This document shows, piece after piece, positions 9,191-12,950 of a stretch of DNA of 64,000 bases (the stretch's first letter is position 1; each line of letters begins with the position of its first letter). Origin of the DNA: Promethearchaeota archaeon (GTDB lineage Archaea > Asgardarchaeota > Lokiarchaeia > Sigyniarchaeales > SOKP01). Position numbers and translations under genes: made by a program. The notes beneath the pieces are model-generated. The model saw only the letters and a program-made list of their open reading frames with translations. It was not told the origin of the DNA and ran no database searches. The stretch covers positions 62,001 to 126,000 of the forward strand of contig JAEOTP010000043.1 in NCBI GenBank assembly GCA_016839765.1, given 5' to 3'.

Positions 9191-11104
9191 TCAATAGATT
9201 TCAAAATCTTTAATAGAAAAATTCTTTTTAATTTTCTTTATTACGGGAAACAGACCTAAGAAATTAAGTAAAAGAAATACACCCAATAATATACCCATTA
9301 TTATAAAAGGTATTGAGATATGTGGTAAATGAACTCTATCGAATAAAACGATGGAATTTAAGATCATTCCTATCCCTAAACTTAATATTATTGATGGTAT
9401 TAATACATACAGTGTTTCTAAGAATAGAATTCTCCTTAAGGAGCGGAATTTTGAGCCAATAGCCCTCATGATTAAGAAATCTTTTGCTTTTTCGATAACA
9501 CCTCCTTTATGATAGTTATATACTGAAAGAACAGAAATTACTGCCATAATTACGATTAAAAATGTAGGATAGAGAGAGATATTTGTAATATAAGCTAAAT
9601 TGGTATCAAATGTTAAGTCAAGATTGATGAATGTAAACTCAGACCCTAGAGTACTATTTAGAATTGTTTCTAAATTAGATTTTAACGTAATATAAGAACC
9701 AGATTCGTATTTTAGCAATAATAAATTAATGTTTTCATTACTCAAATGTAATTCGTTCCTAAATATTTCAATATCTATATATCCAGTATAACCACAATAA
9801 AAACTATCGATCACTACTCCGCATGGATGAAAAGAATGGTTTAAATCTTCTAATAACATGCTTTGATCAAGTGCATAATCAAAAAAATTATAAGCTAGCC
9901 CATCTCCAATAACCATATAAACATGGGAATCACTGTCATTAAAAAATCTACCTTCTATTTCAAAATCATGTATAAATTTTGTGGAATTTATGCCCACTAT
10001 AGGAAATTTTCCACTTCTTTGCTGGCCTACACTAATACAAGTCCCATCCTCATAACAATGAGTCCCATATAATTCTTCAGCGTCGCTAAAAAAAATTAGT
10101 CTTTCATCGATTAGATCAATTTCTGTTAAATTATATAACTCCTCAATGTCTGATGTATTAAATAAATATTCAGGTTTTAAAAAATCAATACTATTTGAAT
10201 CAACAATAATATTTGGGTTTGAGAACATATTATACATCAACGTGTAATTAGATATCACATCCTTATGGCCAATTGCAACAATATTATCACCTTGAGATTT
10301 ATTTACCCATTCTCTCGAGGACGATCCTAAAACTAGAATTCCTAATGCTAATGTGAAAATTATGAGTGTGATGGTTGAAAACACAAAAAGATATCGCTTA
10401 AATTCTCCCTTTCTTCTTAAAGTGTTAACAATAGATATTTTAAAGTTATATCCAATTTTAGATAACCATTTGGGAATAAAGGTTAACCCTTTTCTTGCAT
10501 CATAATCATAAGGAATCTCTTTAGAAAAACTTTTAATGATTTTTTGATTCCCAAATTTTCTTAACATGTAACCAGGAATGATAAAAATACCACCTAGACA
10601 TGAAATAAACAAGATAAGTGTATAGAAATAATCAAATTTAAAAAATACTGAAGCTCCAAGAGAGGACGAGATTAATGCAAAGATTCCAAAAGAGAGTAAT
10701 CCGATAATAAAACCGATTATGAATCCGATTAGAAAGATTAGATAAATTTCAGTCAAATAATATCCATATAACTTTCTAGGAATAGATCCTAAGGCTCTCA
10801 TTATAGCAATATCTCGCTTTTTAGATACAATTAAAGTACTACTAATAATAATTACAATGATAAATGCTAATCCTATCATTAAACTTACAATTAAAATGCT
10901 GTAATTAGTGTAAATAATACTAATACCACCAGAGAAGAAATATGGATTTTCGAATTCATAAATAATAAAGCTGTTTAATCCTGTAGAGGTTGTTAAATAA
11001 ATTAAAAAAGTTGTAGCTGCTATAACTAAAATAACCATAAATAAATATGGAAATGATATTTCTCTCTTCCTGTAGAAATCCTTTAGTGCAAAATCAAGGG
11101 ACAT
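9191..11104 (-). CDS. ABC transporter permease, FtsX/MacB-like
   Basis: Multiple TM segments, RDIAIMRALGSIPRKLYGYYL and AKDFLIMRAIGSKFRSLRRILFLE FtsX signatures, large extracellular domain. Confidence 0.85.
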   Translation of the reverse strand: MSLDFALKDFYRKREISFPYLFMVILVIAATTFLIYLTTSTGLNSFIIYEFENPYFFSGGISIIYTNYSILIVSLMIGLAFIIVIIISSTLIVSKKRDIAIMRALGSIPRKLYGYYLTEIYLIFLIGFIIGFIIGLLSFGIFALISSSLGASVFFKFDYFYTLILFISCLGGIFIIPGYMLRKFGNQKIIKSFSKEIPYDYDARKGLTFIPKWLSKIGYNFKISIVNTLRRKGEFKRYLFVFSTITLIIFTLALGILVLGSSSREWVNKSQGDNIVAIGHKDVISNYTLMYNMFSNPNIIVDSNSIDFLKPEYLFNTSDIEELYNLTEIDLIDERLIFFSDAEELYGTHCYEDGTCISVGQQRSGKFPIVGINSTKFIHDFEIEGRFFNDSDSHVYMVIGDGLAYNFFDYALDQSMLLEDLNHSFHPCGVVIDSFYCGYTGYIDIEIFRNELHLSNENINLLLLKYESGSYITLKSNLETILNSTLGSEFTFINLDLTFDTNLAYITNISLYPTFLIVIMAVISVLSVYNYHKGGVIEKAKDFLIMRAIGSKFRSLRRILFLETLYVLIPSIILSLGIGMILNSIVLFDRVHLPHISIPFIIMGILLGVFLLLNFLGLFPVIKKIKKNFSIKDFEIY

Positions 11105-11128
11105 GATAAAATTCCTCTTAGTGATTGG

Positions 11129-11881
11129 TTATTTCTGATCTACTTTAATAATACTTCCTTCCTCAAATGTAATAACCTTATCAGCAAGTTCAATTAAATA
11201 ATCATCATGAGTCGCAATAATTATTGTTTTTCCCTTATTTTTCATATCCTTAAAGAGATCCCTAATAAACAAGCTAGTCTTTTGATCTAAATTTGCTGTT
11301 GGCTCGTCTGCTAGTATTATAGGAGGATTATTAGCTAATGCGCGTGCTATTGCTACCCTTTGCTGTTCACCCGCAGAAAGCTGAAAAGGAAGATGTTCTC
11401 TTCTTTCTCCTAGACCAATTCTTTTTAATAGTTCAACAGATCGTTCTCTTTGTTCTTTTAGAGTCATCCCTGCTAAATTCATAGGGAATATTACATTTTC
11501 CTCGGCAGTCAAGGTGCTAATAAGATTATAATTCTGAAAGATAAAACCGGAATTTATTAATCTAAAAGTAGCTAAAGTTTCCTCCTCCATATCAGTAATA
11601 TTTACCCCACTATTATAAATAGTTCCTGAATTTGGAGAATCTAAACCTCCAATTAAATTTAACAGCGTAGTTTTCCCAGCACCAGAGTGTCCTTTAATAA
11701 CAATAAATTCGCTCTCTTCTACATTTAAAGACACATCATTCACGGCTCTAACTACAAAATCACCAATTTCATAGTCTTTAATTAGGTTTTTGGCGATAAT
11801 TATGGTATTTCCTTTTTCTAATTCTGGTTTAAAATTAGGCTCTTCCATTCTGTGCTCGTTGACTATTATATCTTTTTCCAT
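11129..11881 (-). CDS. ABC transporter ATP-binding protein, LolD/MacB-like
   Basis: Walker A GHSGAGKTTLLN, signature LSAGEQQRVAIARAL, Walker B IILADEPTANLD. Confidence 0.93.
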   Translation of the reverse strand: MEKDIIVNEHRMEEPNFKPELEKGNTIIIAKNLIKDYEIGDFVVRAVNDVSLNVEESEFIVIKGHSGAGKTTLLNLIGGLDSPNSGTIYNSGVNITDMEEETLATFRLINSGFIFQNYNLISTLTAEENVIFPMNLAGMTLKEQRERSVELLKRIGLGERREHLPFQLSAGEQQRVAIARALANNPPIILADEPTANLDQKTSLFIRDLFKDMKNKGKTIIIATHDDYLIELADKVITFEEGSIIKVDQK

Positions 11882-12036
11882 ATCTATTATATAATTTAAT
11901 ATTTTAAAGCTATTTTTCTAATAATTCATAGCTACTTAAAAATATTAATTGAAGGTTTTTGAATACATTTCAATATTATTATGTTTTTGGATATAATAAA
12001 TAAGATTTATATATCATCTTTTCATATTTCATCATT

Positions 12037-12208
12037 AGAGGGAAGTCGTGGATAAGTGTAAAAATATATAATATCCCCTAATTTCCTAATTAAACATCCA
12101 CGCGATTCGCGTGGCAAGGGTTACATGGTAACTAAGTCTTAGGTTTTATCCCCAAACTTAACCTCCTCGGAGGTTTCCTTTTCCCGACTCCTCTCTTCTC
12201 CTTTTTTT
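12037..12208 (+). ncRNA. Putative structured non-coding RNA (multi-hairpin element, family not recognised)
   Basis: Perfect hairpins CCACGCG-ATT-CGCGTGG (12098-12114), GTTAC-ATG-GTAAC (12120-12132), CTAAG-T-CTTAG (12132-12142), AACCTCC-TC-GGAGGTT (12160-12175); closing helix 12037-12056 with 12178-12196; TATA-like TTTATATAT at 12006-12014; T7 tract at 12202-12208. GC-rich helices in an AT-rich intergenic gap. Confidence 0.55.
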
Positions 12209-12314
12209 AAAGCTTCGTATAAACAAACCATTTTGTTAAAATTTATACATTATTAAGATTTTTAATAGTTAAGGTATATAATTATACAACGCAATTGAAT
12301 TAGGGATAATTATT

Positions 12315-12950
12315 ATGGATTTTGAGAAATTAACCGAATTAATTATAGAGTTAGAAGTAGATGATATTGCAGATGCTGTGAAAGAAGCTTTAGAAGTAGA
12401 TGATAAGGATCCATTTGATGTATTAAATGCATTAACAAAGGGTATGGATGAAGTTGGGAGAAGATATGAGGAAAAAGAGTATTATTTAACTGAATTAGTT
12501 CTAGCTGGAGAGACGATGAAAGAAGCATTTAAAATACTTCAACCAGCTTTAGCTACGTCTGACAAATCACAGGTTAAGACTAAGATCATTTTGGCTACAG
12601 TAAAGGGAGATAACCATGATATTGGCAAAAATATCCTTGGATCCTTGCTTTTGAGCTCAGGATTTGAGATTTATGACCTTGGAATGGACGTTGACGAAGA
12701 TACTATAGTGCAAAAGGTTAAAGAAACGGGAGCAACCATTGTAGGGTTAAGTACACTTCTAACTATGACTGTAGAACACATCAAAGTCGTTCATGAGGCA
12801 TTAAAAACAGCGGGGTTACGAGAACAAGTCAAGCTCATCGTCGGTGGTGCGCCACTCAACATGGAACTTGCCAAGAAACTCGGAGCTGATGACTTTGCAG
12901 ATGATGCTGTCGAGGGTGTAAAACATATTAAAAATTTTGCTGGAATGTAA
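12315..12950 (+). CDS. Corrinoid (B12-binding) protein of methyltransferase systems, MtbC/MttC-like
   Basis: DNHDIGKNILGSLL (DxHxxG B12 motif), N-terminal methionine-synthase cap-like helices, GLSTLLT and VGGAPL. Confidence 0.88.
   Translation: MDFEKLTELIIELEVDDIADAVKEALEVDDKDPFDVLNALTKGMDEVGRRYEEKEYYLTELVLAGETMKEAFKILQPALATSDKSQVKTKIILATVKGDNHDIGKNILGSLLLSSGFEIYDLGMDVDEDTIVQKVKETGATIVGLSTLLTMTVEHIKVVHEALKTAGLREQVKLIVGGAPLNMELAKKLGADDFADDAVEGVKHIKNFAGM

Follow-up and report, generated by a model that had tools for sequence, protein, structure and literature searches.

The 64,000-nt stretch of DNA analysed here (the window) carries at 12037-12208, on the + strand, the founding member of a previously undescribed family of noncoding RNA genes that belongs to one Lokiarchaeia family. 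The invariant, pyrimidine-rich stretch of this RNA is complementary, in genus g8, to translation starts of drug-efflux-type transporter genes, so the RNA is probably an antisense regulator. Specifically, we put at about two in three the probability that it is an independently transcribed antisense sRNA whose core would mask the ribosome-binding sites (RBSs) of target mRNAs, which in g8 would be those of MFS exporter genes. Among the titles and abstracts listed by full-text searches on Asgard and archaeal small RNAs, none describes the RNA.

An earlier note on this locus had proposed that it is a stable RNA gene in its own right, some 170 nt long, with four short hairpins between flanks that pair over long range, a TATA-like box upstream and a T7 tract at the end. 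Every sequence it named, the hairpins and pairing flanks included, lies on the + strand where it was placed, and the proposal of an RNA gene is borne out by a conserved promoter, a T-tract and covarying structure (43 aligned homologues). The 181-nt region adopts a multibranch minimum free energy (MFE) structure, closed by AGAGGG/CUCUCU-type pairing, with an MFE of -47.1 kcal/mol. Dinucleotide shuffles average -33.3 +/- 3.7 kcal/mol (z = -3.7; 0 of 200 shuffles equally low). The reverse strand also folds (z = -4.2), so the strand cannot be assigned from folding alone; the TATA box at 12006-12014 and the T7 tract at 12202-12208 favour transcription of the + strand. The TATA box, TTTATATAT, lies 31 nt 5' of the closing stem, and 42 of 44 homologues have a YTTAWA motif at a distance of 28-36 nt upstream, most often 29-31, compared with 5% at control positions. 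The T7 tract is the presumed terminator, and at least four T residues occur within 18 nt past the end of the model in 38 of the 44 copies. These signals mark the RNA as a separate gene that has a promoter and a 3' T-tract of its own, the arrangement expected of an antisense sRNA.

Two helices of the RNA are conserved. The closing stem P1 (5' arm AGAGGGAAGTCGTGGATAAG, 12037-12056; 3' arm, 12177-12196) is the long-range pairing of the flanks; it has changes on both sides at 12 of 12 modelled pairs, many of them compensatory, and 91.7% of its cells are paired. The 3' hairpin P4, AACCTCC-TC-GGAGGTT (12160-12175), is kept across the homologues with many compensatory changes: all four modelled pairs have double-sided changes, and 73.7% of cells are paired. 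These statistics come from 43 homologues aligned with a covariance model, an alignment that leans towards the modelled structure: 90% of modelled cells are paired overall and 39-70% with the partners slid, and shuffling lowers the number of double-change cells from 137 to 49 and the covariation score from 0.369 to 0.187. An alignment fitted to a model favours that model, yet the covariation of P1 was visible already in the first RNAalifold run, in which 7 of its 12 pairs were compensatory. A further candidate helix, P3 (GGUAA/UUAUCC), was rejected, being mostly invariant and having no covariation support.

The most conserved part of the element is one that the earlier note had missed, the stretch AATATCCCCTAATTTCCTAATTAA at 12070-12093. 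The mostly unpaired core, rather than most of the small hairpins, is the conserved part of the RNA. Within it AATATCCCCTA is exact in 42 of 44 homologues and TTTCCTA in 40 of 44, so that in the RNA AAUAUCCCCUA (42/44) and UUUCCUA (40/44) are the most invariant segments. The conserved pair of core segments, AAUAUCCCCUA and UUUCCUAAUU, is pyrimidine-rich and mostly unpaired; the predicted mean unpaired probability is 0.82 for AATATCCCC (AAUAUCCCC) versus 0.44 overall. Downstream lie a conserved ATGGTAAC block at 12125-12132 (ATGGTA in 44/44 and ATGGTAAC in 35/44 of the homologues matched by model R1, described below) and a second AUCCC segment, TTTTATCCCC, at 12144-12153, where TTTTATCC is found in 23 of 44 homologues. 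A peptide encoded by AUGGUAAC was considered and discarded, as the spacing to the next block spans all three frames. The diverged g7 homologue (L248) keeps both core segments and P1 and has lost the ATGGTAAC block (AUGGUAAC). The proposed antisense part would therefore be the most constrained, and the pattern suggests that function resides in the core.

Of the four hairpins listed in the earlier note, AACCTCC-TC-GGAGGTT is conserved, and the three in the middle are lineage-specific inserts. CCACGCG-ATT-CGCGTGG (12098-12114) is missing from most homologues and lies within an insert that a few relatives share, in modified form only. GTTAC-ATG-GTAAC consists of the conserved ATGGTAAC paired with a lineage-specific partner, and CTAAG-T-CTTAG was seen in the window's own genome only. 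There are two insertion sites, one within the core after CCCCUA(A) and the other between AAUU and AUGG, and in several lineages a hairpin of ~17-34 nt has been inserted within the core.

The window's genome holds a single copy of the element. Homologues number at least 49, roughly one to a genome, and all of them fall within one Lokiarchaeia family, of which 66 genomes were searched. The covariance model R1, made from 15 homologues, matches once each in 46 of the 86 genomes searched in the class, and these 46 belong without exception to the GTDB family of the window. A second model (R2) gives one copy per genome in 47 of 232 genomes searched across the phylum, again all in one GTDB family; its weak members in G087 (g2) and G030 (g7) were confirmed by synteny, and a further member in G005 is truncated at a contig end. 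In single-contig genomes from f2, the neighbouring family, nothing matched at E <= 1. Exact core matches in public records belong to Candidatus Lokiarchaeota/Lokiarchaeia metagenome-assembled genomes. BLASTN and covariance-model searches of related Asgard genomes yield homologues with compensatory changes in P1 and P4, and the stretch that BLASTN matches best in these relatives is the core (query ~31-65), not the hairpins. A possible paralogue, L365 (G087:C53:21729-21840, - strand; also L254), occurs at a different locus of the g2 genome with a model E = 0.33. This candidate has a long closing stem, AGAGAGAAGAU/AUCUUCUCUCU, that encloses AAUAAUAUCCCCAAAUAA and is followed by T-rich sequence.

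The element belongs to none of the known RNA families tested. Rfam has no gathering-level match in the window and allows no confident family assignment, a permissive search of the region gave matches at chance level only (best E = 0.71, far below threshold), and a tRNA/tmRNA search of the window found none. Like archaeal RNase P RNA (RF00373) and SRP RNA (RF01857), this is a single-copy structured archaeal RNA; unlike them, it lies at a locus that neither family matches. The earlier note did not recognise it as tRNA, 5S, SRP or RNase P RNA, which the analysis supports. In this genome the RNase P RNA is elsewhere, at G000:C6:6091-6415, above the cut-off, and an SRP RNA candidate is at G000:C33:47569-47807 (E 5e-16, below the cut-off). 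Guide RNAs were also rejected, with C and D boxes together in 0 of 44 homologues (box C/D) and an ACA near the 3' end in 0 of 44 (H/ACA).

The complementarity to transporter start sites emerged from an exact scan with a 17-mer of the core, for which the chance expectation from base composition is ~0.001 per genome. Several g8 genomes have second matches, and reversed-pattern controls are near zero. These are not extra copies of the RNA, as they lie mostly on the antisense strand of MFS 5' UTRs. In the g8 UTRs AATTAGGAAATTAGGGGATA is followed by a spacer of 2-4 nt and then ATG, and further g8 genomes have the same site with small changes. The core is complementary to these RBSs over ~20 nt, perfectly or nearly so. 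The proteins are Mef/TIGR00900-like, with scores below the curated cut-offs, and their genes are often in tandem. Paralogues are mutually 47-82% identical, yet the motif persists, and the flanking UTR varies whereas the motif is kept. Since these paralogues share ancestry, their sites are not independent events; the motif was still kept as the UTR changed. Duplexes between the RNA and the MFS UTRs of its own genome have a mean z of -6.15 for 14 g8 genes, compared with -0.41 for 13 g1/g2 genes. On these sequence grounds antisense pairing has good support in g8. One g8 genome, G078, has the MFS sites and no match to the RNA. Tandem Mef-like MFS exporter paralogues were seen at L145 (G083:C24:36000-44000) and L146 (G078:C126:1-5000), each with a start-site motif of its own, either AATTAGGAAATTAGGGGATA or closely similar to it, and some g8 UTRs contain a second copy, ATTAGGA(A/G)ATTAGG, upstream.

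The proposed mechanism would begin with an independently transcribed, structured RNA of ~105-170 nt, restricted to the one Lokiarchaeia family. The long terminal stem P1 and the 3' hairpin P4 may present the mostly unpaired, pyrimidine-rich AAUAUCCCCUA...UUUCCUAAUU core, which could then pair with the purine-rich RBSs of target mRNAs and block or modulate the initiation of translation. In g8 the targets would be Mef/TIGR00900-type MFS exporter genes with the 5' UTR arrangement AAUUAGGAAAUUAGGGGAUA-N2-4-AUG. We infer that the RNA is transcribed, that the pairing takes place in vivo and that the sign of regulation is repression by RBS masking.

Outside g8 the search for targets gave a sparser picture. 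The window's genome yielded no long complementary target: a 20-mer scan allowing up to three mismatches gave one other match, G000:C15:3297, with exactly three mismatches, and the only MFS homologue sits so near the edge of its contig that just ~20 nt of upstream sequence is left. MFS homologues of g1 and g2 are without the site, and the g4, g5 and G089 genomes tested, in which the core is kept, have no homologue of this MFS at E <= 1e-20. An accessible region complementary to an RBS is accordingly found in g8 and was not found in g1, the window's genome included. The short RBS pattern TTAGGGGAT-N-ATG has ~117 matches outside g8 versus 67 for the control, a modest excess. True starts among these matches are sporadic, with few recurrent genes, among them one for an SIS-like protein (three g1 genomes) and one for an acyltransferase-like membrane protein (two genomes), both named by inspection. 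Matches to GAAATTAGGGGATA in g6 and g3 were dropped as targets since no start site comes after them. In three g1 genomes, G004, G011 and G016 (L266, L267 and L276), TTAGGGGATTATATATG recurs at the genuine start of a gene whose 372-aa products are orthologous; this gene lies just upstream of MFS genes and is a weak candidate for a target outside g8.

Antisense pairing would presumably be the job of the RNA also where no target was found, the window's genome included. A version that spans the whole family, in which an ancestral RBS-complementary core controls a set of mRNAs (MFS efflux genes in g8 and others elsewhere) and some lineages carry a variable hairpin in mid-core, is one that we advance tentatively and with the odds somewhat against it. 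The main rival to the antisense mode is a core that binds protein or has another role. This would be a structural or housekeeping noncoding RNA whose core is bound in every genus by a protein or by some other RNA; the match to MFS genes in g8 would be a later, secondary recruitment. It would explain why the core is invariant in genomes with no target found, and it fits the near one copy per genome and the stable synteny. However, the g8 MFS match spans exactly the core, the g7 homologue retains the two antisense segments while dropping the AUGGUAAC block, and the RNase P RNA and the SRP RNA candidate have loci of their own in the genome. We regard this explanation as unlikely.

The genes around the RNA bear on a second alternative, that it is a cis-acting 5' leader, either a riboswitch or an attenuator, of the gene downstream. 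The usual setting is an intergenic region between a divergent pair of ABC exporter genes and a gene for an MtbC-like corrinoid protein, after which come TusA, DsrE, NifS and NifU-like genes. In the window the exporter genes are on the - strand at 9191-11881 (FtsX-type permease, 9191-11104; LolD/MacB-like ATPase, 11129-11881), and the corrinoid gene is on the + strand at 12315-12950. Its product is predicted to bind B12 (Pfam PF02310 and PF02607; the closest NCBIfam family is MtbC, below its cut-off). At most homologous loci the RNA adjoins the exporter pair and the corrinoid gene lies downstream, so in most genomes the RNA is upstream of that gene and co-directional with it, as a leader would be. 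In G022, G017 and G025, however, the RNA is inverted relative to the neighbouring genes, and in g4 other genes lie downstream; the RNA is therefore no obligate leader of the corrinoid gene and has no fixed 5' UTR position. Oligo-T directly after the stem, the lack of an Rfam riboswitch match and the absence of pairing to the corrinoid gene start region (mean z -0.33) also argue against a leader, which we consider very improbable. The neighbouring genes as a group give no signal as pairing targets, with mean duplex z near 0. At 12295-12320 of the window the corrinoid gene start region contains GAATTAGGGATAATTATTATGG, which looks like the MFS site of g8 and gives a duplex z of -2.3; relatives do not conserve this resemblance.

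If the shared 20-mer were instead a DNA-level element, for example a transcription-factor site present in the RNA gene and before the MFS genes, no RNA pairing would be needed, and both copies are indeed double-stranded DNA of which a DNA-binding protein can read either strand. However, in the MFS genes examined the motif is antisense and sits 2-4 nt before the AUG, the proper position for an RBS, and in the RNA gene the motif is internal, ~33 nt into the transcript, which makes such an element highly improbable. The suggestion of a miniature mobile element can be dismissed: the closing stem does resemble the terminal inverted repeats of MITEs and IS200/IS605 PATEs, but the element is single copy, lacks a flanking direct duplication, is syntenic across several genera and has its own promoter.

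An antisense sRNA that masks RBSs has known archaeal counterparts. In Methanosarcina mazei sRNA162 a single-stranded, unstructured region masks an archaeal RBS (PMC3510493), and sRNA41 and sRNA154 of the same species are further RBS-masking sRNAs (reviewed in PMC5867862). Like these, the Lokiarchaeia RNA is an independent archaeal intergenic sRNA gene with a single-stranded region, here predicted, that would pair with RBSs. Unlike in sRNA162, the antisense core is common to several genera and, at several MFS paralogues, is almost perfectly complementary over ~20 nt. The likeness to sRNA162 is one of the mode of action proposed here, and sequence relation was examined via Rfam. The haloarchaeal sRNA132 of Haloferax volcanii is also an intergenic sRNA with a putative transporter target, a phosphate ABC transporter operon (PMC6560208).

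The RNA gene is well delimited and comes with a covariance model, a precisely placed antisense core and a specific start-codon target site in g8, so the hypothesis can be tested without culturing every host. To our knowledge, RNA-based gene regulation is poorly understood in Asgard archaea. The position of this RNA beside a MacB/LolD-like ABC exporter, together with its match to the RBSs of Mef-like MFS exporter genes, is a hint that efflux may be under RNA control.
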